IMG/VR virus record: IMGVR_UViG_3300042691_015370
Location: 62,001-126,000 of that record
Strand: one strand, 5' to 3'
Length of the DNA stretch: 64,000 nt
Source: a virus
Within the stretch, counting starts at the first letter, position 1. Every line of letters begins with the position of its first letter. Shown piece after piece: positions 4,363 through 51,538 of the stretch. The position numbers and the translations under genes were made by a program. The notes below the pieces were generated by a model. It saw only the letters and a list, made by a program, of their open reading frames with translations. It did no database searches and was not told the origin of the DNA.

Positions 4363-4364
4363 GA

Positions 4365-5213
4365 CTATGCCACCACCGTTATCGTATCTTGCACAGACTT
4401 TGCTACAATATTATCGGCCAAAAACGTGACTTTTAGAACCCCAGCACCCGTAGCCGCTGGCATACCAGAAATACGATAATAATATGTGTGTGTTTCGTCC
4501 GCTACGCCTAGCGAACCTAACATTAAAGTTGTGTTGACGTTTGGTAGCTGCTGACTATAGACAACATCACCGTCTAAAGAATCCTCAAAGATCTGAATAG
4601 TGCGATTAAGTCCACGCAAGGGATTCGTAAGGATATCGGTGCGAATACGAAAGTTAGTTGCTTGATTATTTAGAGTTAACTGACCCTCAAGCTTCCAGTA
4701 GCTACCAACTGATTCATAAGTAAACCCCTCTTGTTGAGAAGCGGGCCAAAACACTACGTCAGTAGAGGCAAGCGCTGAATGAATGGGTGCAGGATCTGAA
4801 GGAGTGCCCTTGAGAGTCACGGCCAGAGCACCGTCCCAGATGTTCTCTTTAACATAAGTGATAAGATCTGCCCAATCAGAAGCTGAAAGATCGGATCTAA
4901 AGGAAAGGCCATCAAATCCATTGGCCTGATCCATAAAATCAAGCAACATCTGTTCATGATCACTATCTAAAGAGTCGGTCCATGTCACATCAATGTTCGG
5001 ACCGTACAGCTTCACGTTTGGATACATGGGACGGAACTGATCATAAAACGCATTGTAAAAGGCAATGTATCGATTAAAATCGCTGTAACCAATACCCTCC
5101 ATATCCTCCCAAACCAAAATACTATCAAATTCATATGCAGCCTGCATGCTAAGAATGTATTCAAGGTAGGTGTCTGATGGTCTAGGTGGCCCAATATCAA
5201 TAATCTCTGGCAT
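4365..5213 (-). CDS. Minor tail protein with glycoside hydrolase-like N-terminal region
   Basis: 282 residues. Residues 1-135 resemble a fragment of a glycosidase TIM barrel: FDSILVWEDMEGIGYSDFN, then IAFYNAFYDQFRPMYPNVKL and a YGPNIDVTW strand. The W-E-D-M-E-G strand end corresponds to the W-N-E-x-x-G acid/base segment seen in several clan-A glycosidases and phage minor tail proteins. The usual Asn-Glu pair appears here as Glu-Asp, so activity is doubtful. The C-terminal half is a beta domain (WKLEGQLTLNNQATNFRIR). It may bind host surface polysaccharide. Confidence 0.55.
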   Translation of the reverse strand: MPEIIDIGPPRPSDTYLEYILSMQAAYEFDSILVWEDMEGIGYSDFNRYIAFYNAFYDQFRPMYPNVKLYGPNIDVTWTDSLDSDHEQMLLDFMDQANGFDGLSFRSDLSASDWADLITYVKENIWDGALAVTLKGTPSDPAPIHSALASTDVVFWPASQQEGFTYESVGSYWKLEGQLTLNNQATNFRIRTDILTNPLRGLNRTIQIFEDSLDGDVVYSQQLPNVNTTLMLGSLGVADETHTYYYRISGMPAATGAGVLKVTFLADNIVAKSVQDTITVVA

Positions 5214-13596: not shown

Positions 13597-16500
13597 TCAG
13601 TAGTGAGGCTCGTAAGAGCCTCTAGTGCCCGGAACGCCCATGAACTGGATCATCACGTCCATGAACTGCTGGAAGTCCATGCCGCTATTGATCGTCACGC
13701 CACCCATGTTCAACTGACGCCCATCAGTATAACCCATCGCCTGACCGCCAGCATTATAGGAAGTCTGCTGGTTCATGCGGCGAATCTCGTACACTGTTGG
13801 GAGGCCCAAAGTTGATGGCATGTTGATCGACAGATCAGAACTCATATCATCCTTGAGGCGCTTCAGTTCAAGCTCAAGTTCCTTGAACTTCTTGGAGCCG
13901 GGGATGACGGTAGACTGTAGGTTCTTGATGTGAGCCATGTACGTAGACTTGGAAATCTCGTTCATCTCTAGCATGTACTTGTACTCATCGTAACGGTCAG
14001 TATAGACAGCATCCTGTGCGGCCTTGTCTGCGCTAATAGCAGCGGCACGAAGCCTATTGATCTCAGCCTCACCCATACCCTGATCAATACCGTACTGAAG
14101 CTGAGCCTGAGCCTGCTGGCGAGCTACCTGAGCAGCACCAACCTCGTCTTCAATCGCAAGAAGTTCAGCTTGACGCAACTCCATAGCAGACGTGCGAATG
14201 TTTTGCATAGCATCAGCAGCCGTTCGCTGAGCATCAGCGAGTCTTGTTTCAAGATCGATAATTGCATCAATGTCATTAGCCTTCTTAGCATCTGCTAGAA
14301 GCTGATTGAGCATCTTGATGTTGTTATCAGACTGCTGCATTGGATCGCGAGTCCGAGCATTTAGCAGACCGAACAGTGCCTCTACACGAGCACGGTAAGC
14401 TTGGCGCTCTGCCTTAATGGCATTGTTGTAGGCTTCCTCAGCAGCCATGATCTCATCAATATCGCCACCCTTTCTTGCATCAGCAAGAATCTGAGCAGCA
14501 GCCTGAGTATCCATGTTTGCGTTGGCGAGATTGTCATTAGTTCTGGACTTCTTAAGCCCAAATAGTGCTCTCACCCTAGCCGCATACGCAGCCCTCTGTG
14601 CTTTTTCTGCTTCAAGTAGGGCTGTCCAAGCATCAGCATACTGAGCACTATCTTTGCCAAAGATTCTCTCCATGTCAGCAAGTGAATTTTGAGCAACAGC
14701 AACGTCGATGTTAGCACCTTGCAGCGAATCCTTAGCCAAAGCTTTAAATAGCCTACCAAGAGACTGCATTTGAGCATTGAGAGCAAGCTCAAATGCTCTC
14801 TGTAGTTCTAGTTTCTGTTCAAGAGCAGCGTTCAGTGCCGCTTCATCACCCTTACCTGATGCTACATCAATATCAAATTGATTGTTCAGCAGAGCACCGT
14901 AGGCTCGCTTGACGTCATTACCACCAGCCCAACGAGCAATATTGAGACTATTTCTAGATCTATTGACAGCAATACCTTGTTCAAACTCAGCTTTCTGAGC
15001 TTCACCAACCGCAACGTTAGCCTCATCCCATTCTGCTGTACCCGGAGCGTAACGATCTCTTGCAGCAATGGCCGCTAGAACGTTATTGCGAGCAATCTCC
15101 ATTGGGTTAAATGTACGTGAATTGGCAAGTCTAAATCTTCTAGTTGCCGAAGCTGTAATAGCGTCCATGTACTGACTCTGGGCAGCCCAATAAGCCTGCT
15201 CAGCTTCGTCTACATCGGCCTGAGTGGCTTCGCCCGCCGCAAAAGACTCTTTGGCCTTCTGCCATTCAATTGCAGCGGCCTCCCAGTTCGTTCTCGCCGC
15301 TCCCAGCGTATCGCCAGTAGCGGCCTGCTTCGCTCCCTGAGCACCTGCACGGGCAGCACGGGTACGTCGCTCTTGCTGTCTGCGGGCATTTCTGGTTTCG
15401 ATCTCGCTTTCTTCAACGTCAAAATTAGCATCTTCAAGATCATCAGCGTACTGCTGTTGAGCTTCCTCAGACCAATCTTCGCCGCCCCTTGCTTGAGCAC
15501 GATCTCTATCTCTAATGATTCTGTCACGCTTGTCGCGAGCAGCATTCTCTTCAGCCACAGCGGCCGCAACGGGGTCGTTGCTGCGCATAGCGTTGATTCT
15601 TGAACGCCTATACTCCCTATTATCCTCACGCTCTTCACCAGCCAAGATAAATGCATCTTCTTGACGCTTGAGATTTCTCTCAACCTCTTCTGGGCTAGGC
15701 AGATCCGGTGGTGGAGCTACGCCAGCAGGGAGCTTCACGTCCCCTGCCATGCCAACAAATTCTAACAAAGCATACAGGAACTGTAGATGCTCTTCCAGCT
15801 TCTTAATATCCTCTTCAGAAGCTTCTGGATCAGCCTTTAGTTCAGCTAGTTTATCCTTTGTGACGGCAAAACTGGACTTCAAGTCTCTTGTATTAGATGC
15901 ACTCAAAGTATTGTCGTCTAGATAGTCTCTGACAATAGACTCAGTAAATGCTTCACCACTTAGAGCAGACCTTGGAATCAGACCCTCACCAAATACTGAA
16001 TCTTCACCAGTTGGTGGCGTGTATCCAAAGTCCTTAACTAGCTGTGCAGTTGTTGCATTTCTACCGGGCTGAGCGGTACCCTGATCATCCTCAGCTATCC
16101 ACAATTCCTTATCAGCATCATAAGTGTAATTTACATTCGCCCCAAGAGCATCTTTTCTTGAGAACGTATCTCCGTCAGCGGGTCCAGCTTCATTGGAACC
16201 AGACCGTGCGCGAATAGCATCATAGGCTTCGATACCAGCGGCAAAAGCTTCCGAAGCCTTAAAACTATCTGTAATAACTGCATTGTTTGCAGCACGCAGT
16301 CCCTCATCTTGACGCATTCTTTCAATGACAGATGCATCATCTGTAGTATTGGCAAACAAGCTTGCATAAAAAGCCTTCTTAGCGTCAACTACCTGTGCCG
16401 CTACTTCTAGCCTTTGATCACGATCATCAAAAGACGCATTGTTAAGCAAGTCTACATAAGCGCTCAATTGAGCAGCCTGAATCCCAGCCTCAGAGGCACC

Positions 16501-19500
16501 AAATATCTCCATCATCTGGAGAGATCTATCAACCTCGCCCCTGAGAGCCTGAGAAATCTGTTGCTCAGCCTGACGCTTAGCCTGAGCGTATGCTTGAAGA
16601 TCTTCTTCTGAAGGTGCCGTGTCACCGCCATACATCGACTGGCGCATCGTTCTCAATGCTTCAGTGGACTCTTCGATCAGCCCTTTAGTGCCCGTTCTAC
16701 CAGCGCTAAATCGACTAGAAGCCTCTGTAATATCAAAGTTAAGGCGCTCGGCCCTCGTCATATCCTCTAGCTTGGCTTCACGCATCTTGCGTTGAGTTTC
16801 AGGATCATCAAGCGAAACCTGAGCAGCCTTTTCCAAACCAGCCCGAATGCGTGCAACCTGATCCTCGTTAAGATTGCCTTCGGCCTGCATACGTTCAAGC
16901 TCAGCTTGTGGATCATCGGCGGTAATAACCTCAACAACTTCAGCAGACATATTGTCTGGATTCTGATATCCTAATGCTTCAGCGTAGGCAGCCTTAAGTG
17001 CAGCCTCATTATCAGAAAGACGTTCTGTTCTTAATCTTCCACTTGAACCACCAACAATACCATTATCATCAAAAATTTGATTTAGTAATGATTGCTCATT
17101 TTTAGCCCTACGTCGAAGTGACAAACGAGCTTCGTCAATATTTTCGCGCTGCATTTCTTGAAGTGCAGGGGATTGCCGTCCAAAAGCTTCACGAATCTGT
17201 CTAGGAGTAGCGTCTCTGCCGGGTCGAGTGCCTCGACTTCCACCACCAGCAATCGCTGCACCACCAGCAACCCCACGATCGTTAAAACCGCCACTCAATG
17301 CAGCAGTCATTCCAAACGTCTGGAAATAAACCTCTCTTGCAATTTCTGGATTGGCTCGCAAATCGTCTAGTGCAGTGGCCCGTTCAATCGGGATCTCTGC
17401 AAGCACGGCCTGACCACGCAAAATACTCGCTTCAGACTCACGGTTAAATATGGGTCGCCACCAGCGGTCCCAGCCACCACGATCCGACTCAGCGGTTCTT
17501 GCTTGGGATCTTAATTCGGCCGCACGCTTTGACAGTGCCGACTCTGACCCATCTATACCAAGAGCGGCAAGCTTACGTGCCCCTTCATTACCTTCCTTGG
17601 AAGTTTCATAAAGCTCACGCAATGCGGCAGTATCTTGATCTAGCATGCTGTTTACGGCGCTATAAGCTGCCGTAAGAGCCATAATCGCAATAAATGGATT
17701 AGATACCAGACTACCTACAGCGCCAGCAAGGGCCGCTGCTCCACCGCCACCAATCTTCGTAGCAGCCGTACCTACACCCGCTCTCAAACCAGCCTGAATC
17801 TTGCCAGTACCAGAATCTGGCAAGATAGGACCGGCTAGTCTGACCCCACCACGACCAATCGGTGCCCCGGAACGATAATTTTCGTATCTGGCGGCGAATC
17901 CACCAGCGCGATCGTACATTCCTCTCTGAATATTCGACCTATACTGAGCAAAGGAGTCAGGTGCCCAGACATTGCCAGCCATGCGACGTTGCTCGGATGT
18001 TCCAGAATAAAGTACTTGAGACTTGCCATTTTCGTCTACAGCATATCTTGCCCCAGTTGGAGTAACAGCATAGTAGCCACCCTTACCATCAGGCATAGGT
18101 TTAGCAACTGCGTCTGATCCATCTGGATACTTTGTAGGATCTAATACAGTAGCCTTGCCAACAGGTGAATAGAAGCCACCAACGCCCTGTGTCATGGCTC
18201 CTGTGTAAATAGCGTTAGTTCTGGTCATCACCTCCCCACCGTGCTGGATAGCCATACGCAGAAGCTTCCAAGCGGCTACGGCACCAAGAATCTTAGCTGG
18301 TGTGCCGCCCAGAATCTCATTGATGAAAGTAAACAACTTAGCAACAGGAGAGATAACGGTTGCCAAAAGTTTAAGGCTATCAATTAGAACCTTAAACATA
18401 TCCTCTAGACCAGCGTCCAGAGCATAAACCATAATAGTACGGAATTGCTCACCAAGAATTCTCATCTGCGTGGTAAGCGTTTCCTTCTGTCGTTCAAATC
18501 TCTTTTCTAGCGCTCCCTCACTATCTGAGGCACGGGCCTCAAACCTTTCCGTGTTCTGTGGCTTAGCAAATGCTCCAATAACCACACCAGCTTCACGACG
18601 GCCACCAAGCAGTTGATATAGCTGCTCTTCAGATTCCTTACTGATATTTGGCAGGGCTTGAGGCAGTGCCTTAAAGACATCTGCTGTAGTTCCTTCACGC
18701 AATGCATCAATAAAATCTGGACCAAAGCCCGGATCTTTATACGCAAGCTGGAGAAGAGCGTCCTTATTGCCGGGAACAGATGGCAAAACTCGACCCAACT
18801 GCTCAGCAAGAGCGCCACCGGTACGACCAGATGTCTGAGCAATGGTTGCACCAATGGCAATAATTTCATCTGACGTAAACCCAGACTGCTTAGCGATAGG
18901 AGCAATACTTGACAAGAACTCAACCTGAGAAGCTACGTCAACACCAGACTCTGAAGCTACTGCCGTAAGCTTGTTGCCAATAAGCTCATTGCTCTCTCCG
19001 AAAGAGAGGCCAATCGCAATAGCCTGATCACTCAGAGTCTTGGTCGGCAAGTCTGCGACAACCGCAAGCTTCGCTGCGGCTTCTCGCTGCTCCTTAACCA
19101 ACTCTTCGCCCGAAATCGACCTATCACCAGCACCCTTAATCGTTTCTCCCAAAAATGCGCCTCTAATAGAGATCTCCATTTTTGCGATCTCATCAGCGCC
19201 GACACCAGTTTCCTTCGAAAGATCAACGATAGCCTGTTTAATGCCATCAATCTTGCCCTTAGCGTCTTCACCAAATGTTTGCGCTAGCTGCGAGTCAAGG
19301 CGTGCTAGCGCAAACTTGAGTTCTTCAGCTTCCTTGAGAGCGCCAACAAGACCAGCCCCAACACCAAACAAAAGCATAGAGGGCAAAGCATACTTCATAC
19401 TTTGAATTGCGCCCTCACCAAACCAACCGCCCAAGCTGTCATCGCCTCGCACAGCTTGGCGGAACGCCGTAAACCGACTTGGCTTACCATTATTGCCATA

Positions 19501-22500
19501 AAAACGACCGCCACCGCCGTACCCACCATAGCCGCCATAGCCGCCACCGCCGCCGTATCCACCACCCATTCCGCCACCAGCAGCAGTGACAGGATCTGAC
19601 AAACGACCAGTTCTTCTAAACTCTTCATCAAGAATTTCTTGATCAGAAAGGTTAAAGCTCTTCTTTAATCTTTCGTACTGAGCGGCAGCTTGAGCTTGTT
19701 GTTGAGCAACATCTTCTGGGCTACCAGCACCGGGACTGAACGCCTGACCCAGAGCGCCGTATGCTCTTGTAGCTGCCTTCGCTCTTCTCTCTTGCCACCT
19801 AGCAGCACCCTCGTCTGCACTCAGTTCACCTGAAACGACGTCATCCCAAATGTCGGCACTCTTGCCCTCTGGGAACAGTCCTCTGCGAGCAGCAGCTTTT
19901 TGTCTTGGGGTTAAGGCTTCCCAATTACCATCACTCAAGTTACGCGCAGCCTGACGCTGGTCAGCAGCGAACTTGGCCTTACGGGCAGCAGCGTCAGACT
20001 CGGCTTTACGATCAGCATCTGCCGTTTCATTTTCGGCCCGAGCACGACGACGTTGCTCTGCTTTCTCCTGTCGCCGTTTTTCGTTCGCTTCGGCAGCCGC
20101 AGCAATAGCGGCTAGACGATCAGCTTCAGTGGCAGGACCGACAAAAGGAGTGCCACCACCATCAATAACATTAGTACCTGCACCCAGTGCTCTGCGCTCT
20201 GCGAGTCTAGCTCTTCTTGCTTCAATATATGGGTCTACTGGAGGTAGAGCAAGAGGCTGTCGTGGCCCATAAAGCGGAATTGGCACACCAGTACCCGGAA
20301 TGTCGGTACCAATCATTAACTCTCTAGCAGAGAAGCGGCGCTGTTCAGGGGTAACTCCCGGCCCCAAGGCAAGAGGTGTTGCAGATCTACCGAGTGCCTC
20401 AGCAGCGGTTGCAGCAGCATCAGTGCCCACAGCAACTGCATGCATCTCAAGAGCCGCCGTGTCCGCAAGGAGAGCTAGCCTCAGTTCTGATGCAGTAGCT
20501 GTAAGGGAATCTAATTCACTGACAAGAACGGCTCCAGAGACTCCCGTGGCAGTAGTACGAGATCTTGCTACTTCATTAGCTCTTGTGAAAATAGCGATCT
20601 GTTCTGGTGTGGCTTCTCCCGAAGCAACTAGGGGTCGCAATTCAGCAAAGTACTCACTTGGAGATAGCTTTGACTGACTCGTTGGGAACAGTGCGTCGGG
20701 ACCACTTAGTCTGTCACCTCTACCAACAATAATCCCCTGATCTTCAAGGATCTGGCGATAAGCTGGATCTAGACCCAGCATATTCTCCATACGATGCTGA
20801 GCTTCGTGCAGGGCTGTAGCCGGTCCAGCGCCGAGAGTTGCTGCACCAGCAGCACCAACCTCACGACTCGTGCCTCCACTAGCTACCCAATCGTCAACAC
20901 CAGCAATCATCTCTGAGTTCATTACCCAGCGACCATCACCCGTCATTGCCCCTAGACGGCCACGGAACTCATCGCTTAGTTCTGAAACAACCTCGGTTCT
21001 TAGATCACCCAGCAGGTTAGGTGCCCCTGCTTGCATAGAACGCATGTATGCTTCAATACCAGATGCGCTACCCAAAATGTCAGGACGACGAGGGGTGCTA
21101 TAAGCGTCAGAACCGGGACCAAGCTCTGGCGGGCGCTTGCCTTCTTGACTTCTGCGAAGTTCTTCCTCTACCTGCTGACTAATTACCTCTGCACTTGGCA
21201 TAAGGCTAACTTGTCTTGGGCTTGGCCCATAAATGGTGCGGTAACCATCATTTCCATAGTAATGAGACAACTTACTGGTGCCCGTCAGGCCCCAGTTTTG
21301 AGACACCGCCTCTGTGTCGTAAAGCGATCCGTAGCTTCCAGACTTAGCATCTAGCCATTCATTATAGGCTCTAATCATCCTTTGTCGAGTACGAAGCGAG
21401 TGATCATATATGTTGTCACGGAACCCTTCAATCCACTGTACATCACCCTCGTCCTCAAGCTGCATTTGAACGAAGTTGATAGCATCAGAAGATTGGGTTT
21501 TACGGTATCTATTGGGACGACTGAATGCTGTCTCACCAGAACCAAGCTCGCCCCTGAAAGGTGGTGGGAAGAGTTCGCTATATGAGAAGGCTCCCCTGAA
21601 GGGTGGTGGCTGTGTTCTGTAGCTTGGCAGTGGCGGAGGAATAGGTCCAGTGTAAGGTGGTAGTCCCCAACCGGGGCCTGAGTATTCGGGACGAGTAACT
21701 CCGGGCAGAGAACCAGTATAAGGAGGCGGTGTTAAAGCTTGCTTATTAGCATCCCATTGAGCTTCAAAGATCTTGTACTGAGCCTCGTCGTCGGTCAAAA
21801 TGCCACGACGAATCATGCGCTCAATACTTGCGGCCGCTGTTACACTAGAATCACGAAGCCGCTCCAAAGACTCTCGCAAATTGGCAGGTACCTCAAGCCG
21901 ACCAGCAGCTAGCCTCTGCTTTTCTGTCCATTCGCTACTATCATCAACGTCGGAACCAGCAAACAGCTTGTTCCACATGATGTCTTTGACACGCTTCTGT
22001 TGAGCAATCTGCTCGGCAGTGCCACGACCAACATCGTAACCAATAACCTCTGCACTAGGTACAGGGCTAAAACGAGATACCCGTCTTGGAGAAGGACCAA
22101 TAACGTTACCATATAGATCATAAGAAAGACCTATAGTACTACCGCCTAGCCCTTCACGAGCCAATCTTTCTTGAATTGCTCCTTGTCGCTGACGGCTTCT
22201 AGGGAAAGCTTCTGCAATTTCTGCACCCGGCTTATTCTCTGTTAGCATGAAGGGCAATGCAGCGTCTTCTATAGCCTGCATGGCAAGGAAGTTCATGTAG
22301 TCAGAAGACTGCGGCCTATTCGGAGTGCTGAAGATAGTGCGGCCCGTGCCTAGAGCAAGCTGCTCACGCACGAAGGAGTCAGTATCAAGACCATACAGCC
22401 AGTCTTTAAGCTCCCTGTTACGAGGACTCTTGCTCAAAACTTGTCCGAAGATATCACCCTCATTGCGAGAAACAACATCACGAACATTCCGAGCAGCCAA

Positions 22501-25500
22501 GCTTGGACTACCGCCTCTACCCAATTCTGAGTAAAGATCAATGAGAGTAAATCCAGCCCTAGGATCGTACATAAAGTTACTAGCTGAACCAGTGTCTGGA
22601 CTAAGGCCCCGCATTCCAACCGCAATCAGAGATTGCAGCATGGCTCGTACCTGAACGATCTCAGGCACAATACCCTTACCCTGCCCAAGAGCCATACCGG
22701 GCGCTAGGCGAGTAATCGGGTGACCGAGCTTATCGACAGCAGCAAGTTGCTCAACACCCGGAATGCCGATTACTTGCTGTAACCCTCTAGTACGCTCTAG
22801 TAGTCGAGCATCTGCAACTTCTGGGAACTCTCCAGTACCCTCATACAGCATCTCATAAATTGAGGGGTTCTCTGGCAGCGGCTCACGCCAAACATAAGAA
22901 GATTTGCCTGCTTTGAATCCATAGGCAGCAGCCTGTGACCCAATACCAATGGGTGAACCAAGAATCTTGCCACGATAAGCGAGAGCCAACTCTTTATCAA
23001 GAGCGGCGCGTTCTTTCGATCTGGCTAGCTGCGCAGCAAGACGTGACTGAGAGGGATCACTGTATTGAGTTGAGGCACCGGGCAGTGCAAGACGTTCAGC
23101 AACACTGCGAGAAATAAGGGGAGTCGCAAGAGCTTGAGCTTCAACCAAAAGAGCCTGAGCTTCAGGACCATCAAGTCTACGCAGTCGTTGAGCGAGGTCC
23201 AAAGAGGCTTGCGGCACTCCCCTTATTTCTCTAACAGATTGGGCAGCATTTTCTACATTACCAAGAGCTTTTTCGACCAAACCGCGCTTACTGTATTGAC
23301 GAGGCAACATATCAAGCTGATAGTCAATAGATGTAAATCCTCTATCGCCCGTAGTGTCGTAGAGAACATTCTTCCAATGACCGTCGCCATGGATACCCCG
23401 CAAACCCAAAGCCGCTTGAGTCCTGAAAAGCGCAAGAATCTCATCCTTAGTGGGGATGTTTCCGAAATACGTTCCCTCGTTTTGTCTATCAACTATTTGC
23501 TTAATAGTTTGGCCGGGGGCACGACGAGTAATTGGCCTACCATCACTAACGGCAACCAACTGCTCCGCACCCGGAATTCCAATAGCCGCCTTAAGACTAT
23601 CTAGTCTAGAATAGATGTTTGGATTTAGCCTTCTGATATCTCTTCTTGCAACATACTCTTGCGAACCCGCAGCAAAACCATAGGCGGAACTGTTCATACC
23701 AGTACCCAACGCCTCTTGGGTTAAGTTTCCACCTCTCAATATTTCATTTAGTGCCAAGCGATCAGACGAACGTTGCAGTTGTGTTATGAGACGAGCATTA
23801 GAAGGAGTACTGTAAGCGTCACGCGGCATGCCAATAGCGAGGCGCTCATCTCTGGCCCAACGTTTTTCAAGATTGAGTTCACGAGAACCCATTGCCATAG
23901 CTTGCTTATGAAGCTTATTGAAGTCCAGTGCCATACCACCAAACTGTTGGCGTAGCGGCTCATACGCTTGAGTGAACCAAGCACGGGTAAAATCATTGGA
24001 CATCTGCGGGAAGGCAAGCTCAGTGGCTGCGACTTCGGCCGTCAATTCATATGGAGTTGCTCTAGAGTAGTTGCTTGGTACAAATCCTGTACCACCAACA
24101 AGACTTCTTCTAGACTGATCTTCAAACGGTGCGCCGGTCCATCTACCGCCAATGTCCGCAATTAACTGTTTACGGTTTTGTGGCACGGGCAGGAAATGTC
24201 CAGCCTCATGAGCAAACAAGGTGCCAAACAAACCTCTACCAACAAGTGCGTTTTCATTATTAACACTCTTGGGCTGTAAACCGCCGAAAAGACGACTACG
24301 AACACCCATAAATCTAGGAGCAAACCCAGACTCACCGAGCATCCTGCCATACTGCCTTTCCCAAGGACTATTAGCATCGGAAGCTACCCTAACGCCCAAG
24401 GCACCGAACTTTGCTACACCAGAACCAAAGCGGCTATCATAGTCAGCCATCATGGAAGCCAAAACAGGCATTGGAGCATTGGCAAATGGCCGTCTTAGCT
24501 GCGTAAGGTCAGTGCCCTTCTTGAGGATATCGGTATTAAAAGTACCATTGAATACGCTATTAAGCGCATCAAGACTTGTTTGGTTAATACTTCGAGATAC
24601 ACGCGTTCTACGGGGACCGACATCATCAAACGATGGGAAGGGCTGGATAGGGGCGAACCGGCTCGTTTGAGAAAAGGCTTGAGGGTACAAGAACTTAGCG
24701 GCAGAAACCGCTTCACGCTCACTGCTAAAGTTTGGAATAATCTTCGCAGCTTCACCGAGTGGATTAAAATTACCTGCACTAGAGAGCATTGCATCAACAA
24801 GTGCTGGCGCATTTCTAAGAGACTTAGCCCTAGCACGAGATGCCATAAACTGCGTCGGTCCATGCCATTGCTCAATAGATGGATCAACAAGAGCTTCTAG
24901 TTTGGGTAGAATCTCTCGGTACTCACGAGTCCGCTGTAGCTGTTGCTCAAGACGTTGCGAGATTGTGCCCGATCGTGGCGTCGAATAAGCGGTCTGCCCC
25001 GCACCAAGCGCTGGGATGCCAAGGTCAGCCAAAGGATCATTTGAACGAGCTTGAAGAGCTAGACGAGCACCCTTGCTAATAAGTCCAGCGTCACCAAGCT
25101 TGGTAATGTCAGCTTCCCAGATACGGCCAGAGTAGAACTTATCACCAGAGAGTCTACCGTCTAGCAATCTACCGGGCTGCACCATACGTGCAACACCGGC
25201 GTTTGCAAATCTCTCCCATAGCGCATTAGCCTGCAATGACACAACATTATCAGACCTTGCCGTAGTAACGCCAAGCCCTGACATCAGCCTTAGCATACTA
25301 TCAATGTACATCCCAGAGCCAAGACCACGACCCCGAGCGCTCGCATCAAGTGAACTTAATGCAACACTAGCAGTTGATGGTTGCCGTACATTTGGAACAT
25401 TCCAGTCAATAAAGCCACGGGCAGAATCACCGGGCTGTCCAAAGTTGTAGTTAAAGGATAGTGGAACGGTAGAATTCTGTAGCGGTGAACTATAAGCATT

Positions 25501-26997
25501 TCTGCCGGGAGTCAATTGACGGGACTGTCGTGCAACGTTCTGTAGAGCATTCTCCTGCTGCCAACGATTGAAAGCAATGTCGGCAGGAGTTATAACCTGA
25601 CCAGAGCCAGTTGTTACTACCTGTGGTCCACCGATACGTTCACCAAACGTTCTTTGAGACAGTGAAGTGGAGGGAACATACTGAGGCAAAGCAAATGTCT
25701 GCCGATACGGCAAAGCCCCAGCTTGAGATGCTGGGGCTAGCGAAGCAGAACCGGTTGGTAGACCAGAAACCGCTGCCGCCTTGCGCTCCAGAGCATCGAT
25801 CAGACCCTGCTCTGCTGCGGCGAAACGACCGTAGCTACCAGTCAGAACAGAGGTTTGTCGATCTAGGGCACGGGACTTGCTCTGAAGGGCACGAATCAGT
25901 ACCTGTTCCTCAAGAGCAAGTTGACTGCCAGTATTTCCATAACCCGGCTTTGCTGGCTCAGTGGCGGGGGCTGTCGGAACCGCCCTAAGTACAGGCTGGA
26001 CAGGAATAGCAATAGCAAGCTGAGCAGACTGACGCTCTTCTCTGCGACGATCTACGAGCGCCTGAGGTGCCACTGGAGCGGGGATCGCCACCATGGCGGG
26101 TTGCTGCACAGAGGTCGCAATAGGACGTGGCAGAGCGGGCTGTGAAGCCTGTACTGATGGGGTGGGAAGTTGACGTGGCCCGCCGACAGCAACGGCCAGA
26201 ACCTGATTATAGGCACGAGCAACTCTATCCCTCGTACTCTGGGCAGCAAACCTGTTGGCCGCAACAATCTCTTTCTGAGAACGAATGACCTGATTCTGGA
26301 ATGCATTGGTCTGCTCCAGCAGAGCCGTGTACTGACGTGCCTGTGCAGTCTGTCCACGGAGAATGCTTTCAAGATCCTTGTTGTACCGATCAGTGATAGC
26401 TGAACTGGTCAGTACCGGAGCGGCAGCGGCGACGTTTCTCGTCACCGACGAAGTTGTAGACGCTATGGCAATAAGGCTGGCTTCTCTGTCGAGCCGCTGA
26501 TTGAAGACCTTGGAGATATCCTCAATACGAATGTTGTCCAGTACGGCAAAAAGTTGCTGTGACTTCTGAGTGAAAGCTGAAGAGAAGACTCGTTCAATTT
26601 CTGCCTGTTGCTGTGGGGCAAAGAAGTTGAAGCCACGAATCTGTTGTTTCAGCTTGTCAAAGTAGAGATCACCGAACCTGTTCAGATCCTGAATCTGGCG
26701 ACCGATGACACGAGATGATGCAGCAAGCTGAGCCTGCATAAGCGCAGCAACACGGCCCTGTGCGGCCATGAGTTCACGCATCTCACCTCGTGAGGTGGCA
26801 ATCGCAGATGTCGCAATAGTATTAGGTGATCCTAGTGCTGCAAGAGTTGTGGGGGGAGCGAGTTCCCCGGCAACACCACCAGCACCCCCTAGGGCACCGG
26901 CCTCAAGCGCACGCAACGAGTTGGCAGTCTCACGAACGCCTCTCTGAATGCCAGAGGTATCAAGATCTACACTAATAAGCCAGCGATCTTCTGCCAT
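13597..26997 (-). CDS. Tape measure protein, 4466 residues, with inserted enzyme-like modules
   Basis: Starts with MAEDRWLISVDLDTSGIQRG, a typical tape measure N-terminus, with AGGAA placed ahead of the ATG. Residues 1-500 are helical. About 501-2170 are seven modules opened by an A-Y-S-T-P-type motif (separate entries): GNAT-like, zincin-like, kinase-like, degenerate kinase-like, two paralogous unknowns, zincin-like. About 2180-2480 is charged helix (EKRRQEKAEQRRRARAENET). A Gly/Tyr-rich linker follows near 2485-2510. The phage tail tape-measure core starts at a membrane-like segment (ALPSMLLFGVGAGLVGAL, near 2536-2553) and continues with KQAIVDLSKETGVGADEIAK. Further hydrophobic stretches include NPFIAIMALTAAYSAVNSML. 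About 3000-4380 are long coiled coils with roughly 65-residue units ending ARVEALFGL...(S/A)RT. It is the largest gene here and lies next to the frameshifted chaperones, as expected. Confidence 0.92.
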   Translation of the reverse strand: MAEDRWLISVDLDTSGIQRGVRETANSLRALEAGALGGAGGVAGELAPPTTLAALGSPNTIATSAIATSRGEMRELMAAQGRVAALMQAQLAASSRVIGRQIQDLNRFGDLYFDKLKQQIRGFNFFAPQQQAEIERVFSSAFTQKSQQLFAVLDNIRIEDISKVFNQRLDREASLIAIASTTSSVTRNVAAAAPVLTSSAITDRYNKDLESILRGQTAQARQYTALLEQTNAFQNQVIRSQKEIVAANRFAAQSTRDRVARAYNQVLAVAVGGPRQLPTPSVQASQPALPRPIATSVQQPAMVAIPAPVAPQALVDRRREERQSAQLAIAIPVQPVLRAVPTAPATEPAKPGYGNTGSQLALEEQVLIRALQSKSRALDRQTSVLTGSYGRFAAAEQGLIDALERKAAAVSGLPTGSASLAPASQAGALPYRQTFALPQYVPSTSLSQRTFGERIGGPQVVTTGSGQVITPADIAFNRWQQENALQNVARQSRQLTPGRNAYSSPLQNSTVPLSFNYNFGQPGDSARGFIDWNVPNVRQPSTASVALSSLDASARGRGLGSGMYIDSMLRLMSGLGVTTARSDNVVSLQANALWERFANAGVARMVQPGRLLDGRLSGDKFYSGRIWEADITKLGDAGLISKGARLALQARSNDPLADLGIPALGAGQTAYSTPRSGTISQRLEQQLQRTREYREILPKLEALVDPSIEQWHGPTQFMASRARAKSLRNAPALVDAMLSSAGNFNPLGEAAKIIPNFSSEREAVSAAKFLYPQAFSQTSRFAPIQPFPSFDDVGPRRTRVSRSINQTSLDALNSVFNGTFNTDILKKGTDLTQLRRPFANAPMPVLASMMADYDSRFGSGVAKFGALGVRVASDANSPWERQYGRMLGESGFAPRFMGVRSRLFGGLQPKSVNNENALVGRGLFGTLFAHEAGHFLPVPQNRKQLIADIGGRWTGAPFEDQSRRSLVGGTGFVPSNYSRATPYELTAEVAATELAFPQMSNDFTRAWFTQAYEPLRQQFGGMALDFNKLHKQAMAMGSRELNLEKRWARDERLAIGMPRDAYSTPSNARLITQLQRSSDRLALNEILRGGNLTQEALGTGMNSSAYGFAAGSQEYVARRDIRRLNPNIYSRLDSLKAAIGIPGAEQLVAVSDGRPITRRAPGQTIKQIVDRQNEGTYFGNIPTKDEILALFRTQAALGLRGIHGDGHWKNVLYDTTGDRGFTSIDYQLDMLPRQYSKRGLVEKALGNVENAAQSVREIRGVPQASLDLAQRLRRLDGPEAQALLVEAQALATPLISRSVAERLALPGASTQYSDPSQSRLAAQLARSKERAALDKELALAYRGKILGSPIGIGSQAAAYGFKAGKSSYVWREPLPENPSIYEMLYEGTGEFPEVADARLLERTRGLQQVIGIPGVEQLAAVDKLGHPITRLAPGMALGQGKGIVPEIVQVRAMLQSLIAVGMRGLSPDTGSASNFMYDPRAGFTLIDLYSELGRGGSPSLAARNVRDVVSRNEGDIFGQVLSKSPRNRELKDWLYGLDTDSFVREQLALGTGRTIFSTPNRPQSSDYMNFLAMQAIEDAALPFMLTENKPGAEIAEAFPRSRQRQGAIQERLAREGLGGSTIGLSYDLYGNVIGPSPRRVSRFSPVPSAEVIGYDVGRGTAEQIAQQKRVKDIMWNKLFAGSDVDDSSEWTEKQRLAAGRLEVPANLRESLERLRDSSVTAAASIERMIRRGILTDDEAQYKIFEAQWDANKQALTPPPYTGSLPGVTRPEYSGPGWGLPPYTGPIPPPLPSYRTQPPPFRGAFSYSELFPPPFRGELGSGETAFSRPNRYRKTQSSDAINFVQMQLEDEGDVQWIEGFRDNIYDHSLRTRQRMIRAYNEWLDAKSGSYGSLYDTEAVSQNWGLTGTSKLSHYYGNDGYRTIYGPSPRQVSLMPSAEVISQQVEEELRRSQEGKRPPELGPGSDAYSTPRRPDILGSASGIEAYMRSMQAGAPNLLGDLRTEVVSELSDEFRGRLGAMTGDGRWVMNSEMIAGVDDWVASGGTSREVGAAGAATLGAGPATALHEAQHRMENMLGLDPAYRQILEDQGIIVGRGDRLSGPDALFPTSQSKLSPSEYFAELRPLVASGEATPEQIAIFTRANEVARSRTTATGVSGAVLVSELDSLTATASELRLALLADTAALEMHAVAVGTDAAATAAEALGRSATPLALGPGVTPEQRRFSARELMIGTDIPGTGVPIPLYGPRQPLALPPVDPYIEARRARLAERRALGAGTNVIDGGGTPFVGPATEADRLAAIAAAAEANEKRRQEKAEQRRRARAENETADADRKAESDAAARKAKFAADQRQAARNLSDGNWEALTPRQKAAARRGLFPEGKSADIWDDVVSGELSADEGAARWQERRAKAATRAYGALGQAFSPGAGSPEDVAQQQAQAAAQYERLKKSFNLSDQEILDEEFRRTGRLSDPVTAAGGGMGGGYGGGGGYGGYGGYGGGGRFYGNNGKPSRFTAFRQAVRGDDSLGGWFGEGAIQSMKYALPSMLLFGVGAGLVGALKEAEELKFALARLDSQLAQTFGEDAKGKIDGIKQAIVDLSKETGVGADEIAKMEISIRGAFLGETIKGAGDRSISGEELVKEQREAAAKLAVVADLPTKTLSDQAIAIGLSFGESNELIGNKLTAVASESGVDVASQVEFLSSIAPIAKQSGFTSDEIIAIGATIAQTSGRTGGALAEQLGRVLPSVPGNKDALLQLAYKDPGFGPDFIDALREGTTADVFKALPQALPNISKESEEQLYQLLGGRREAGVVIGAFAKPQNTERFEARASDSEGALEKRFERQKETLTTQMRILGEQFRTIMVYALDAGLEDMFKVLIDSLKLLATVISPVAKLFTFINEILGGTPAKILGAVAAWKLLRMAIQHGGEVMTRTNAIYTGAMTQGVGGFYSPVGKATVLDPTKYPDGSDAVAKPMPDGKGGYYAVTPTGARYAVDENGKSQVLYSGTSEQRRMAGNVWAPDSFAQYRSNIQRGMYDRAGGFAARYENYRSGAPIGRGGVRLAGPILPDSGTGKIQAGLRAGVGTAATKIGGGGAAALAGAVGSLVSNPFIAIMALTAAYSAVNSMLDQDTAALRELYETSKEGNEGARKLAALGIDGSESALSKRAAELRSQARTAESDRGGWDRWWRPIFNRESEASILRGQAVLAEIPIERATALDDLRANPEIAREVYFQTFGMTAALSGGFNDRGVAGGAAIAGGGSRGTRPGRDATPRQIREAFGRQSPALQEMQRENIDEARLSLRRRAKNEQSLLNQIFDDNGIVGGSSGRLRTERLSDNEAALKAAYAEALGYQNPDNMSAEVVEVITADDPQAELERMQAEGNLNEDQVARIRAGLEKAAQVSLDDPETQRKMREAKLEDMTRAERLNFDITEASSRFSAGRTGTKGLIEESTEALRTMRQSMYGGDTAPSEEDLQAYAQAKRQAEQQISQALRGEVDRSLQMMEIFGASEAGIQAAQLSAYVDLLNNASFDDRDQRLEVAAQVVDAKKAFYASLFANTTDDASVIERMRQDEGLRAANNAVITDSFKASEAFAAGIEAYDAIRARSGSNEAGPADGDTFSRKDALGANVNYTYDADKELWIAEDDQGTAQPGRNATTAQLVKDFGYTPPTGEDSVFGEGLIPRSALSGEAFTESIVRDYLDDNTLSASNTRDLKSSFAVTKDKLAELKADPEASEEDIKKLEEHLQFLYALLEFVGMAGDVKLPAGVAPPPDLPSPEEVERNLKRQEDAFILAGEEREDNREYRRSRINAMRSNDPVAAAVAEENAARDKRDRIIRDRDRAQARGGEDWSEEAQQQYADDLEDANFDVEESEIETRNARRQQERRTRAARAGAQGAKQAATGDTLGAARTNWEAAAIEWQKAKESFAAGEATQADVDEAEQAYWAAQSQYMDAITASATRRFRLANSRTFNPMEIARNNVLAAIAARDRYAPGTAEWDEANVAVGEAQKAEFEQGIAVNRSRNSLNIARWAGGNDVKRAYGALLNNQFDIDVASGKGDEAALNAALEQKLELQRAFELALNAQMQSLGRLFKALAKDSLQGANIDVAVAQNSLADMERIFGKDSAQYADAWTALLEAEKAQRAAYAARVRALFGLKKSRTNDNLANANMDTQAAAQILADARKGGDIDEIMAAEEAYNNAIKAERQAYRARVEALFGLLNARTRDPMQQSDNNIKMLNQLLADAKKANDIDAIIDLETRLADAQRTAADAMQNIRTSAMELRQAELLAIEDEVGAAQVARQQAQAQLQYGIDQGMGEAEINRLRAAAISADKAAQDAVYTDRYDEYKYMLEMNEISKSTYMAHIKNLQSTVIPGSKKFKELELELKRLKDDMSSDLSINMPSTLGLPTVYEIRRMNQQTSYNAGGQAMGYTDGRQLNMGGVTINSGMDFQQFMDVMIQFMGVPGTRGSYEPHY
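20488..21105 (-). other. Tape measure module 7: second zincin-like (HExxH) domain
   Basis: Residues about 1965-2170, opened by DAYSTPRRPD. TALHEAQHRMENML puts HEAQH at 2064-2068. Downstream SPSEYFAELRPL supplies Glu residues for a third ligand. This H-E-x-x-H...E layout, with an Arg after the second His, recalls zincin-like domains seen in large polyvalent phage and plasmid proteins. It differs from module 2 in flanking sequence. Confidence 0.62.
21106..21528 (-). other. Tape measure module 6: short paralogue of module 5
   Basis: Residues about 1824-1964, opened by TAFSRPNRYRKTQSSDAINF. Half the length of module 5, lacking the Pro-rich tail but keeping YGPSPRQVSLMPSAEVI. A central segment GFRDNIYDHSLRTRQRMIRA is helical and basic. 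Function unknown. Confidence 0.5.
21529..22335 (-). other. Tape measure module 5: unknown domain with proline-rich PPxY tail
   Basis: Residues about 1555-1823, opened by TIFSTPNRPQSSDYMNF. It shares QSSD-x3-NF, GPSPR-(R/Q)-VS and PSAEVI with module 6, so the two are related. The last 90 residues are Pro-rich with repeated P-P-(P/E)-(Y/F)-x-G units (TPPPYTG, LPPYTG, PPPFRG twice). No enzyme motif was recognised. Confidence 0.5.
22336..23067 (-). other. Tape measure module 4: degenerate copy of the kinase-like domain
   Basis: Residues about 1311-1554, opened by TQYSDP. Parallel to module 3 in order: IGIGSQAAAYGFKAG, YVWREP, IGIPGVEQLAAVDK, HPITRLAPGMAL, then GMRGLSPDTGSASNFMYD and FTLIDLYSEL. 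The catalytic His is Ser, and the Asp-to-Asn spacing is one residue longer (Asp1468, Asn1474), so phosphotransfer is doubtful. It may be a pseudokinase partner of module 3. Confidence 0.62.
23068..23817 (-). other. Tape measure module 3: kinase/aminoglycoside phosphotransferase-like domain
   Basis: Residues about 1061-1310, opened by DAYSTP. The N-lobe has LGTGMNSSAYGF (Gly-rich loop) and YVARRD, where an Arg takes the place usual for the beta-3 Lys. The hinge is PITRRAPGQTI. The C-lobe has IHGDGHWKNVLYD (His1203, Asp1205, Asn1210), matching the H-x-D-x4-N catalytic loop, then FTSIDYQLD with Asp1225 as the metal-binding Asp of an I-D-x/D-F-G-type motif. All catalytic-loop residues are present. 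Target unknown. Confidence 0.68.
23818..24990 (-). other. Tape measure module 2: zincin-like (HExxH) domain
   Basis: Residues about 670-1060, opened by TAYSTP. LFAHEAGHFL places the HExxH zinc and catalytic motif at 930-934. About 60 residues downstream, PYELTAEVAATELAF offers Glu residues suited as third zinc ligand. The stretch before HExxH (RFMGVRSRLFGGLQ) and the long N-terminal part (670-890) are not recognised. A zinc metallopeptidase is expected to cut proteins; the substrate is unknown. Confidence 0.68.
24991..25497 (-). other. Tape measure module 1: GNAT acetyltransferase-like domain
   Basis: Residues about 501-669, opened by NAYSSP (Ala501). It contains GFIDWNVPN, then the strand ASVALSSLDASA leading into RGRGLGSGMY (555-564), which matches the Q/R-x-x-G-x-G/A acetyl-CoA pyrophosphate loop. 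After that come GLGVTTARSDNVVS and ANALWERFANAG, the usual GNAT motif-B helix with its aromatic residue. The order strand, RGRGLG loop, helix, strand, ALWERFANAG is the family's C-terminal core. Substrate unknown. Confidence 0.7.
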
Positions 26998-33739: not shown

Positions 33740-33942
33740 CACACACCTTCTTCTTCAAATACACTTGGATCTACATAATACGTAGGCTCTATAACCTCGT
33801 AAGCGCCTAAAGTTCCTTCTGGAATAAGATCCTTCATCGATGCCGGAATCCCATGTAATATAACGCCACATTGATTCGCAATTGCTGTTTCACGCACCGC
33901 ATTAGATGTTGGTAATGGTTCATTCGTAATCCAGAATTTCAT
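33739..33942 (-). CDS. Small protein between fibre genes
   Basis: 67 residues (FWITNEPLPTSNAVRETAIA...). ATGA overlap with the collagen-like fibre gene upstream and TGATG with the fibre gene downstream, so translation is coupled. Family not recognised; a fibre-associated chaperone or attachment protein is possible. Confidence 0.5.
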   Translation of the reverse strand: MKFWITNEPLPTSNAVRETAIANQCGVILHGIPASMKDLIPEGTLGAYEVIEPTYYVDPSVFEEEGV

Positions 33943-36323
33943 GATGCCCCCAGAAGAACAAGCGTATTACCAGCAGAACCATTTGTTCCAGCAGTTCCAG
34001 TTCCGCGACCAGATGCTCCAGTTCCACCATTTACCTGAAGTGTGAACGAGTGCGAAGTAGAACCAGTAATTAAAGCAATGAATCCACCACCACCACCAGC
34101 CCCACCACCGGTATTGTTATTGTCAGCCGTCCGCTGCGCGCCATCGCCGCCGTTGGCCCTGATAGTGCCACTCCCAGCTACTTCACGGGCCTTGATGAAC
34201 AAGAAGCCACCCCCGGCGCCGCCACCGCCGCCAAGCGCAGAGCCATTACCACCACCCGACCCGCCGCCGCGACCCGCACAAACAATGAGAGGCGAAGCCG
34301 AGTTACGAGAGAAAACGATACCTTGCTCCAGCATAACGACATGCGACCTCAACGCCGCTTCCGTGGTTGACGACAAGGTTGCAGCAACACCTGAGCCACC
34401 ACCTGAGCCACTAGATCCCGAACCACCAGTTCCTCCTGCACCACCGAAGGCAATAATATTGCCATTCAAAGGATTGGTGGTTGGTGATCCGGCAACACCA
34501 GCAGTGCTTGTTCCTGTGCCACCCGCTGCGCTGTTGGTACCTGTACCGGGGGCAGCTATAAAGCTTCCGCCAGTCACACCGCTGGCACTGCCGCCGTTGG
34601 CGCTAATGGTGCCATTTACAGTCAAAGTTCCTGACACATAGATAATCCCATGGACCGTCAACACGACGCCCGGATCAATGGTCAAGTTACGATAGTGTTT
34701 GATACCATTGCCAGTGTAAAAGTTCGAAGTAATGGTGGTATCAACAGCAATAGTAACATCACCATCAGCACCAGTTCCAAAAGCCACCGATGGACCAACT
34801 GCGCCATCTACGCCATCTACGCCATCAGCGCCATCAGCGCCATCAGCACCGGCTGGGCCGGGATCTCCTTGAATGCCCTGAATGCCCTGTAAACCTTGCG
34901 GGCCAATCAAAGAAACACCACTGGGCCAAACTCCAGCAGCCTTAGGTCCAAACAGATAGTTAGTATCTGTTCTTATGTAGAAATCACCGTCTACTCCTTG
35001 AGTTGTGGGATCAACCGTTCCGTGTAGAACAGTCTTGCCGTCAACTCCGTTCGCACCTGCTGCGCCATCTGCGCCAGCGGGACCGGGGTCGCCCTGTGGC
35101 CCCTGTGCGCCATCTGCGCCAGCGGGTCCCTGAATGCCCTGTATACCCTGAATACCTTGGATGCCCTGAATACCCTGTTCTCCCTGTGGTCCCTCGGGAC
35201 CAATCAGAGGAAGGCCCGCAGGCCAAATTCCAGAAGCTTTAGGGCCAAATAGTGTACTCGTATCAGTCCTAATGTAGAAGTCTCCATCAACTCCTTCGGT
35301 CGTAGGATCAACTGTACCATTCAGAACAGTTTTACCATCTACACCATCTACACCATCTACACCATCGTTGCCGGGTGGGCCTTGTTCGCCAGTAGCACCA
35401 GCAGGGCCGGGATCTCCTTGTATCCCCTGTATTCCCTGTTCGCCCTGAATACCTTGAGTTCCTTGTATACCTTGCTCTCCCTGAGCGCCTTGAGGACCAA
35501 CTAAAGAAGCAAGCCAATCCTGCTCAGTCCCAACAAAACCATTGGCAACAGCAACCTCGTAAGCCGATAGACCATCGTCTCCGTCTATTCCCGGCTCACC
35601 TTGTATGCCCTGTACGCCGGGATCGCCTTGAGGACCGGGATCGCCTTGTGCGCCATCATTACCCGGTGGACCGGGATCACCGGGTAAGCCGGGTTCTCCC
35701 TGTGGTCCCTGCTCTCCCTGTGGACCTATAAGAGATACCCCAGCAGGCCACACGTCAGCAGCTTTGGGACCAAAGATAGTACTAGTATCAGTGCGGATAT
35801 AGAAATCCCCATCTATACCCTCTGTAGTTGGATCTACTGTGCCACTCAGAAAACCGCCGCCACTACCACCAGACGGACTAACGTTTATGACACGCCAAAC
35901 TCCAACATAACGAAGCAAAATAATGGCGGTGCCGTTAGGAACGACCAACTCTGTGACCATCTCGTTGCTGACGTTAAAGATCACCTCGTCATTCTCATGA
36001 GGAATGACAGTCAAGTCGTCCATCCATGCAGAGATCACAAATGCCTGTGGGGTTTCGGGCTGAGTACTGATCTCTGGGAGATTAATCGTGCCTGTGCCAC
36101 CGACAACACCATCTGTAGCAGCAAGCGTAACTGTATCTCCCATAAGAGTTTGTTCTGAAGGCAGGAACAATGCCTCACCGGGTGGACCGGGGTCGCCCTG
36201 TGGGCCGGGATCGCCGGGGTCACCGGGAGCACCAGCAGGACCGGGAGGACCCTGTTCACCGTTGACAAACACCTCAACCGGCGATTCCGTAGGTATGACG
36301 ACGACTACTGTTTCATCAGACAT
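33939..36323 (-). CDS. Collagen-like tail fibre
   Basis: 794 residues dominated by Gly-X-Y tracts (GPPGPAGAPGDPGDPGPQGD and three later blocks rich in GIQ, GDP and GADGADGVDG), which form trimeric collagen-like rods in phage fibres. The tracts are interrupted by three copies of a roughly 45-residue unit: GTVDPTTEGVDGDFYIRTDT then FGPKA...WPAGVSLIGPQG. There is also one GLSAYEVAVANGFVGTEQDW insert. The C-terminus (about 500-794) is a Gly/Ala-rich beta structure (TFGGAGGTGGSG-like runs), probably the distal knob. The N-terminal VEVFVNGEQGPPGP matches the other fibre starts. Confidence 0.8.
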   Translation of the reverse strand: MSDETVVVVIPTESPVEVFVNGEQGPPGPAGAPGDPGDPGPQGDPGPPGEALFLPSEQTLMGDTVTLAATDGVVGGTGTINLPEISTQPETPQAFVISAWMDDLTVIPHENDEVIFNVSNEMVTELVVPNGTAIILLRYVGVWRVINVSPSGGSGGGFLSGTVDPTTEGIDGDFYIRTDTSTIFGPKAADVWPAGVSLIGPQGEQGPQGEPGLPGDPGPPGNDGAQGDPGPQGDPGVQGIQGEPGIDGDDGLSAYEVAVANGFVGTEQDWLASLVGPQGAQGEQGIQGTQGIQGEQGIQGIQGDPGPAGATGEQGPPGNDGVDGVDGVDGKTVLNGTVDPTTEGVDGDFYIRTDTSTLFGPKASGIWPAGLPLIGPEGPQGEQGIQGIQGIQGIQGIQGPAGADGAQGPQGDPGPAGADGAAGANGVDGKTVLHGTVDPTTQGVDGDFYIRTDTNYLFGPKAAGVWPSGVSLIGPQGLQGIQGIQGDPGPAGADGADGADGVDGVDGAVGPSVAFGTGADGDVTIAVDTTITSNFYTGNGIKHYRNLTIDPGVVLTVHGIIYVSGTLTVNGTISANGGSASGVTGGSFIAAPGTGTNSAAGGTGTSTAGVAGSPTTNPLNGNIIAFGGAGGTGGSGSSGSGGGSGVAATLSSTTEAALRSHVVMLEQGIVFSRNSASPLIVCAGRGGGSGGGNGSALGGGGGAGGGFLFIKAREVAGSGTIRANGGDGAQRTADNNNTGGGAGGGGGFIALITGSTSHSFTLQVNGGTGASGRGTGTAGTNGSAGNTLVLLGAS

Positions 36324-49395: not shown

Positions 49396-49913
49396 ACCTT
49401 TACCGCCCAACACAGAATGTTCGGATGAGCGTTAACCTGCATACTCTCTACCTCAAAACCAACTTCTTTCAGATACCACTTAAGAGTACCCTGATCAAAA
49501 AGAGCATAGTGAGAATTGAAACGCCAACTTGCCTTGTCCTGAATGTAGTCTTGGTCATACTGACCACCCATCAAAATCCAAGCCAACGAAACAAGCGGCA
49601 ATGGATCTAGATCGCTTCTAGTTCCGATTCTGCCTCTCATGTATCTCTTGATAGCCTCAGTTGCCTCAGGGACCTGAATGTAAATGCGAGCACCTTTTAC
49701 CATAACTCTGTGCCACTCAGTGAGAGCAGCCTTTGTGTCACGATAAGAAATGTGCTCAAGTACGTCCACAACTTTCATCTCAGTGACAGTGTTTGCCCTC
49801 AGCGGAAGCTCTAGGGCATCAGCCACAAGATCGGGAGACTGTGCGACATCAATGTCGAGATGCAAGTCATAAAGTGGATCTGGATTTTTGCCGGAACCTA
49901 GTTCTACTTTCAA
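49392..49913 (-). CDS. Class I SAM-dependent methyltransferase
   Basis: 173 residues. Motif I is VELGSGKNPDPLYDLHLDID, then LVADALELPLRANTVTEMKV and VDVLEHISY, the usual D-x-x-E-H of Methyltransf_11-type enzymes. RVMVKGARIYIQVPE is the post-motif strand. Within a sugar cassette it most likely methylates a glycan or a precursor. ATGA overlaps on both sides. Confidence 0.8.
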   Translation of the reverse strand: MKVELGSGKNPDPLYDLHLDIDVAQSPDLVADALELPLRANTVTEMKVVDVLEHISYRDTKAALTEWHRVMVKGARIYIQVPEATEAIKRYMRGRIGTRSDLDPLPLVSLAWILMGGQYDQDYIQDKASWRFNSHYALFDQGTLKWYLKEVGFEVESMQVNAHPNILCWAVKV

Positions 49914-51530: not shown

Positions 51531-51538
51531 TCTACTTC

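Follow-up and report, generated by a model that had tools for sequence, protein, structure and literature searches.

What does a long stretch of enzyme-like sequence do in front of the ruler part of a phage tape measure protein (TMP)? The question is raised by a 64,000-nucleotide stretch of viral DNA (the window; positions 62,001 to 126,000 of the 145-kb IMG/VR record IMGVR_UViG_3300042691_015370; all coordinates given below are window positions), in which an initial annotation had noticed that a large part of a 4466-residue TMP did not look like tape measure sequence. The answer that we favour, with a fair measure of reserve, is that this is a siphovirus-type TMP, the N-terminal third of which is a polyvalent and probably processed enzyme cargo that is delivered by the TMP. 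From its N-terminal end, the cargo would comprise a GNAT-like module (M1), a zincin-like module (M2), two kinase-like modules (M3 and M4), two related unknowns (M5 and M6) and a second zincin-like module (M7), with a short border peptide between each.

The profile matches and the surroundings of the gene identify a genuine TMP with a genuine ruler core. Residues 2588-2790 matched PhageMin_Tail with 45.6 bits (E 9.9e-12; cut-off 33.2), and the protein matched PHROG family 28 (tail length tape measure protein) with an E-value of 4.6e-14. It is encoded by the longest open reading frame (ORF), which lies beside tail genes, and terminase and head genes are present in the same virus. The unusual stretch, residues 501-2170, maps exactly onto positions 25497-20488 within this gene, and all the motifs that had been reported in it are in place: RGRGLG at residue 555, HEAGH at 930, HGDGHWKN at 1203 and HEAQH at 2064. 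The composition of the N-terminal block differs from that of the ruler part. When the full TMP and each single module were scanned, Pfam and PHROG matched nothing but the ruler core; hence, the TMPs of relatives were needed for the assignment of the modules.

Relatives were reached via the terminase (32 related loci) and via the TMP core, which yielded further TMPs; they carry G or L numbers below. Searches with the modules found no relatives in annotated phages and none in viral contigs beyond G001 (IMGVR_UViG_3300037189_011016), and a scan of genome contigs with the TMP core confirmed nothing. The G001 TMP is at least 5767 amino acids long, ends at the contig end, and shares with the window TMP the core (E 3e-66) and both terminal parts. 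Profiles were made from the G001 modules alone and compared with all the TMPs and with reversed sequences, among which the best decoy reached E 0.017 for a whole sequence and 0.058 for a stretch.

The G001-only kinase profiles matched the window TMP at residues 1097-1254 (E 1.7e-11) and 1348-1490 (E 1.5e-7), and M3 and M4 are also homologous to each other (E 1e-25). Common to the four kinase copies are G-x-G, A-Y-x-F, V-x-R, a catalytic-loop D-(4-5)-N, Y-D and G-F-T-x-(I/L)-D; the Gly-rich loop G-x-G, the catalytic Asp, the Asn and the metal Asp are invariant. An AlphaFold2 model of a G001 kinase copy, obtained from the four-sequence alignment, had a predicted local distance difference test score (pLDDT) of 77.6 and a predicted template modelling score (pTM) of 0.77. 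In Foldseek, 718 PDB chains matched this model at E<=0.001; the top matches, down to 6e-7, were protein kinases including Rio2 and CK2 (probability 1.00), and viral kinases were matched in BFVD. This good model of a relative's copy indicates that M3 and M4 are homologous to modules with a bilobal protein-kinase fold. The first kinase-like domain of the initial annotation is thus borne out; the second had been described as degenerate, which we do not uphold, as M4 is not clearly more so than M3: the catalytic Asp, the Asn and the GFTxID Asp are present in the two. The kinase chain ends shortly after the catalytic core, and polyvalent kinases are likewise devoid of the C-terminal subdomain (PMC5512222). 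The polyvalent kinase family PF18762 had no match in the TMPs of G000, G001, G005 and G015, and the kinase module profile gave only chance matches among PDB sequences.

The profile from the G001 GNAT modules alone matched residues 526-638 of the window TMP with an E-value of 3.6e-12. An R-G-x-x-x-G motif, together with the flanking strand-helix pattern, is common to the three GNAT-like modules (one in the window TMP and two in G001). The acetyl-CoA loop R/Q-x-x-G-x-G/A fits RGRGLG in the window and RGKGYG in G001, the other G001 copy being RGKNRG. One G001 copy scored 18.6-18.9 bits against Acetyltransf_1 (cut-off 20.7), with E-values of 0.0024 in the Pfam search and 4.3e-5 in a one-genome search. 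Acetyltransf_1 had no direct match in the window TMP in the Pfam scan, and the GNAT module profile gave chance matches only among PDB sequences. The GNAT proposal therefore stands on homology to the G001 modules, whereas the family match is sub-threshold and belongs to a G001 copy.

HExxH occurs twice in the window TMP, twice in that of G001 and once each in those of G005 and G015 (as HEWGH in the latter), and is followed each time by E-x-x-(A/P)-(E/Q), which could supply the third ligand. Alignments of the zincins over their full length were set aside, as HExxH was out of register in them. In M2 (residues 671-1060), only the first ∼60 residues match the zincin modules of relatives (E 4e-4), and we regard its assignment as a zincin as moderately supported. 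No homology to the relatives' modules was found for M7 (residues 1965-2170), where SEYFAE, 51 residues after HExxH, resembles the motifs of the other zincin modules; M7 is a putative zincin by motif only. So, of the two zincins proposed earlier, both motifs are real and the assignments differ in strength. The relatives' zincins show HExxHxxD, the pattern described for phage-type polyvalent zincins (PMC5512222), and both window zincins lack that Asp. The G005 TMP matched the putative metallopeptidase family DUF6782 with E 1e-4, below the cut-off. The two related unknowns of the earlier description, M5 and M6, are indeed homologous.

Judged by these comparisons, the block before the ruler core is a string of enzyme-like modules and not ruler, as had been suspected. 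One could still argue, from the lack of a direct family match to the window block, that the motifs are a coincidence in ordinary helical tape measure sequence. Such a coincidence is hardly credible in view of the decoy-controlled profile homology, the kinase fold model, the composition unlike ruler and the absence of the block in relatives having the same core; for M1, M3 and M4, it is ruled out on these grounds. The features are collected in Table 1.

Table 1. Features of the TMP gene, listed from the N-terminal end of the protein (empty cells, nothing to report)
Feature	Residues	Window positions	Strand	Basis or remark
TMP gene	4466 aa	13597..26997	(-)	single uninterrupted ORF; PhageMin_Tail and phrog_28 matches; 0 Cys
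Conserved N-terminal domain	1-200	26398..26997	(-)	residues 58-178 against G001 TMP, E 6e-12; also in G004/G005 TMP
Conserved helical element	341-413	25759..25977	(-)	against G004/G005 660-736, E 2e-9; also in L055, L056
Border peptide 1, LTPGRNAYSSP	495-505	25483..25515	(-)	
M1, GNAT-like module	RGRGLG at 555-560	25078..25482	(-)	G001 GNAT profile matches 526-638
Border peptide 2, LGAGQTAYSTP	664-674	24976..25008	(-)	
M2, zincin-like module	HEAGH 930-934, later YELTAE	23836..24975	(-)	module start against relatives' zincins; motif spacing
Border peptide 3, IGMPRDAYSTP	1055-1065	23803..23835	(-)	
M3, kinase-like module 1	HGDGHWKN 1203-1210, Asp1225	23086..23802	(-)	G001 profile; G001 copy models as kinase fold
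Border peptide 4, LPGASTQYSDP	1305-1315	23053..23085	(-)	
M4, kinase-like module 2		22354..23052	(-)	G001 profile; homologous to M3
Border peptide 5, LGTGRTIFSTP	1549-1559	22321..22353	(-)	
M5, unknown module, proline-rich tail		21547..22320	(-)	homologous to M6, E 3e-8; no family match
Border peptide 6, LGSGETAFSRP	1818-1828	21514..21546	(-)	
M6, unknown module		21124..21513	(-)	homologous to M5
Border peptide 7, LGPGSDAYSTP	1959-1969	21091..21123	(-)	
M7, second HExxH module	HEAQH 2064-2068, later SEYFAE	20488..21090	(-)	motifs only
Glycine-rich hinge between cargo block and ruler core	∼2473-2500	19498..19581	(-)	19 Gly in 25 residues from 2473
Ruler core	2588-2790	18628..19236	(-)	PhageMin_Tail match; conserved in 13 TMPs
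Conserved C-terminal part	4135-4466	13600..14595	(-)	comparison with relatives' TMPs

The border peptides are new with respect to the initial annotation. The pattern [LI][GTP]x[GPA]xxx[YF]SxP (short form LGxGxxAYSTP) has seven strict copies in residues 450-2200, each at a module border, where a mean of 0.0025 copies is expected by shuffling. The codons differ among the copies, so that it is the peptide and not the DNA that is conserved. G001 has a different peptide, G(N/D)(A/S)GG, in 10 copies, nine of them as L-x-G-(N/D)-(A/S)-G-G (short form LQGN[AS]GGF), and nearly all of these lie between modules. This arrangement suggests that the peptides serve for recognition or cleavage, in a version particular to each phage. 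A site shared with a phage head protease is unlikely, because, outside the TMP, no ORF of the 145-kb genome contains the window peptide.

Cleavage at such sites could also belong to tail assembly. The block would then be cut off at the border peptides and act in the producing cell, for instance as assembly-time enzymes or as a bulky cap, and only the ruler would enter the virion. The processing of TMPs and head proteins is known in other phages, the peptides do sit at the module borders, a folded block of 1.7 thousand amino acids fits a tail tube poorly, and the length of the block is uncoupled from that of the ruler part across the relatives. However, the peptides are found between every module, not once between block and ruler, and the conserved N-terminal domain is on the far side of the block. 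The block also obeys the no-cysteine rule of TMPs (see below), which is needless for a part discarded in the cytosol. We therefore consider removal at assembly unlikely.

The module order of G001 is kinase, kinase, GNAT, GNAT, zincin, ADP-ribosyltransferase-like (by eye) and zincin, which differs from that of the window TMP; the set is thus shuffled. Among 13 TMPs, between 233 and 3978 amino acids precede the core, against 1179 to 1936 in the remainder. The TMPs of G029, G016 and G030 have almost no block, and the related phage GX15bay possesses the core and lacks the block. The comparison of relatives proposed with the initial annotation thus shows that the block comes and goes while the ruler part is kept. 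The conserved helical element precedes the cargo in the window TMP (341-413) and follows the zincin in that of G005 (660-736), indicating that cargo was inserted at more than one place. From these sequences, the cargo appears to be a cassette with a rapid turnover among related phages. The G015 TMP carries an Arr-ms (rifampin ADP-ribosyltransferase) domain (31 bits against a Pfam cut-off of 25; L043, 4407-4829). ADP-ribosyltransferase-like stretches seen by eye in the TMPs of G001, G021 and L055 had no family support; by-eye stretches of this kind were noted at L011 8304-8816, L047 7159-7521 and L055 5372-5950. Also by eye, the N-terminal blocks of the L055 and L056 TMPs contain repeated short winged-helix-like segments (residues ∼1280-1320, 300-340 and 1460-1510).

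A Gly-rich tract similar to the window hinge also precedes the TMP core in G005, G015 and L059. The ruler function probably resides in the ∼1940 residues after this hinge; the earlier statement that it is kept would hold for this part and not for the whole chain. TMP length converts to tail length at 0.15 nm per residue, which predicts a tail of ∼290 nm if only residues 2530-4466 measure and ∼670 nm if the whole chain does.

Another feature, which the initial annotation did not contain, is the absence of cysteine from the whole TMP. There is no Cys in its 4466 amino acids, enzymes included, while the two other frames hold 118 and 347 Cys codons. The 13 TMPs of the group have two Cys in 37,107 amino acids, and their N-terminal blocks one in 17,632; near Cys-free TMPs were seen in the window, L011, L042-L049, L055-L062 and L068. 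The other window proteins have 0.69% Cys, a rate at which 1700 Cys-free residues have a probability of 7e-6; at the lower rate of structural proteins, the probability is 8e-4. Lambda H and HK97 H also have no Cys, nor has the N4 virion RNA polymerase in 3500 amino acids. The enzyme modules thus follow the Cys rule of rulers and ejected proteins, and a lack of Cys may hold generally for proteins that travel through a tail or are ejected. The composition is compatible with tail passage, of which it is no proof.

Several observations weigh against a delivered and active cargo, in addition to the missing family matches noted above. TMPs that have no enzyme-like domains are Cys-free as well, so the rule reflects a TMP-like constraint rather than the ejection of the domains. 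The kinase and GNAT modules recur in one relative only, G001, and no isolate is known. The border peptides could be a linker kept by intragenic exchange. A three-module AlphaFold model of the window block had a mean pLDDT of 42 and its Foldseek matches were meaningless; thus, the structure modelling suggested with the initial annotation delivered a kinase fold for the G001 copy but no structural confirmation of the zincin and GNAT folds. In all four kinase copies, the strand-3 Lys (its position taken from the predicted strand 3) is replaced by Arg, and the HxD His is present only in M3, being absent from the other three, which makes kinase activity doubtful. These two kinase changes, and a second zincin that has no homologs, would fit modules that are decayed passengers, their enzyme folds lengthening the ruler as a spacer with no catalysis. 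Yet the catalytic Asp/Asn/Asp, R-G-x-x-x-G, and HExxH with its downstream Glu are kept between copies of ∼30% identity, and a spacer has no need of recurring border peptides; decay to a spacer is, in our view, quite unlikely.

During infection, TMPs exit the tail ahead of the DNA, whose passage through the membrane they assist. In lambda, a proximity label at the inner membrane tags the TMP while the genome enters (PMC13190303), and contractile injection systems load and eject effectors that are related to TMPs (PMC11126660, PMC13277306). The exit of TMPs ahead of the DNA, together with the existence of TMP-related ejected effectors, makes a polyvalent, probably processed cargo the best reading. 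The whole chain would be built into or attached to the tail and, cargo included, would thread into the envelope and cytoplasm before the DNA. In the host, the cargo may then fold, helped by the absence of Cys, and be split into its single enzymes at the border peptides; the cutting would be done by the zincin modules themselves or by a protease of host or phage. Once released, these could acetylate, phosphorylate, cleave or, in the relatives, ADP-ribosylate host targets at entry, the outcome being takeover of the cell or disarming of entry-sensing defences. The initial annotation had likewise proposed tail delivery of host-modifying enzymes. This is the most economical reading, to which the Cys absence and the Arr-type domain of G015 lend some support, whereas ejection and folding, as well as cleavage, activity and targets, are what we infer from it.

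An action at the envelope has also to be considered, in which the zincins cut periplasmic or wall components during entry and the other modules are structural leftovers, as in the muralytic TMPs of T5, TM4 and Staphylococcus phages. The TMP enzymes known so far are wall hydrolases (references in PMC6145125 and PMC13277306). In the Pfam scans, however, no wall-hydrolase family was matched. Kinase-like, GNAT and Arr-type domains need ATP, acetyl-CoA and NAD, which are cytosolic, leaving such domains no substrate outside and arguing for action inside the host. We regard the envelope as a very unlikely site of action. In a bolder form of the delivery reading, some siphovirus TMPs might be self-processing polyprotein carriers, whose interchangeable enzymes, set apart by phage-specific cleavage peptides, are injected as part of the ruler and freed as separate effectors before the DNA arrives; this we put forward only tentatively.

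The fold classes are those of polyvalent proteins, as the initial annotation stated for the GNAT, zincin and kinase-like domains: GNAT-like and kinase-like by homology, zincin-like, and the ADP-ribosyltransferase of a relative. In those proteins too, one long phage polypeptide holds several enzyme domains, including zincin peptidase, kinase, GNAT and ADP-ribosyltransferase (the last here in relatives), and is predicted to enter the cell with the DNA, and the HExxHxxD of the relatives' zincins is shared with them (PMC5512222). Here, however, the carrier is a TMP, and PMC5512222 makes no mention of tape measures; the PF18762 family is unmatched and the window zincins are without the Asp after HExxH. 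The effectors of contractile injection systems (Tme, PMC11126660; Sle1, PMC13277306) are similar in having a TMP-derived carrier that is loaded in a tail-like particle and ejected, with domains exchangeable between relatives. Those are genome-less systems with one C-terminal effector, whereas the window belongs to a virus with terminase and head genes, and its cargo, N-terminal to the ruler core, has seven modules with border peptides. In wall-degrading TMPs (T5 pb2, TM4, phiIPLA35 and Basilisk gp47), enzymes are also fused into the TMP and used at entry, but these are peptidoglycan hydrolases and not kinase-, GNAT- or zincin-like domains or, in a relative, an ADP-ribosyltransferase. The N4 virion RNA polymerase is likewise a very large, ejected, multidomain and Cys-free enzyme, but it has a polymerase as catalytic core and is not a tape measure. 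MuF-toxin fusions (VIP2 ADP-ribosyltransferase, PMC7302621) join a virion protein to a toxin-like enzyme; there, it is a head protein with a single toxin domain. Our search of the open-access literature (subscription papers and preprints being outside its scope) turned up no kinase, GNAT or ADP-ribosyltransferase modules in any phage TMP.

Some other observations were made in the window and among the relatives. A strong set of collagen triple-helix repeats (Pfam Collagen, E 8e-29) lies in the tail gene region at 33939-36323. A run of glycosyltransferase-like genes is found beside the packaging genes at 48361-54428, and GX15bay has annotated glycosyltransferases at the same place. A gene for a class II (B12-dependent) ribonucleotide reductase is located at 56225-58252. 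A relative of the group (L067/L068) is on a contig binned with a Candidatus Saccharibacteria metagenome-assembled genome, a lead to the host in which the binning may be wrong.

If our reading is correct, the TMP, so far known as a ruler, a membrane channel and sometimes a wall hydrolase, would become a vehicle for several intracellular enzymes at the first moment of infection. Polyvalent proteins and the tail-borne effectors of contractile injection systems would be joined in one phage protein, which would reveal how relatives can exchange such cargo and would provide a natural example for protein delivery. Whether parts of TMPs act in the host cytosol would thereby become a directly testable question.

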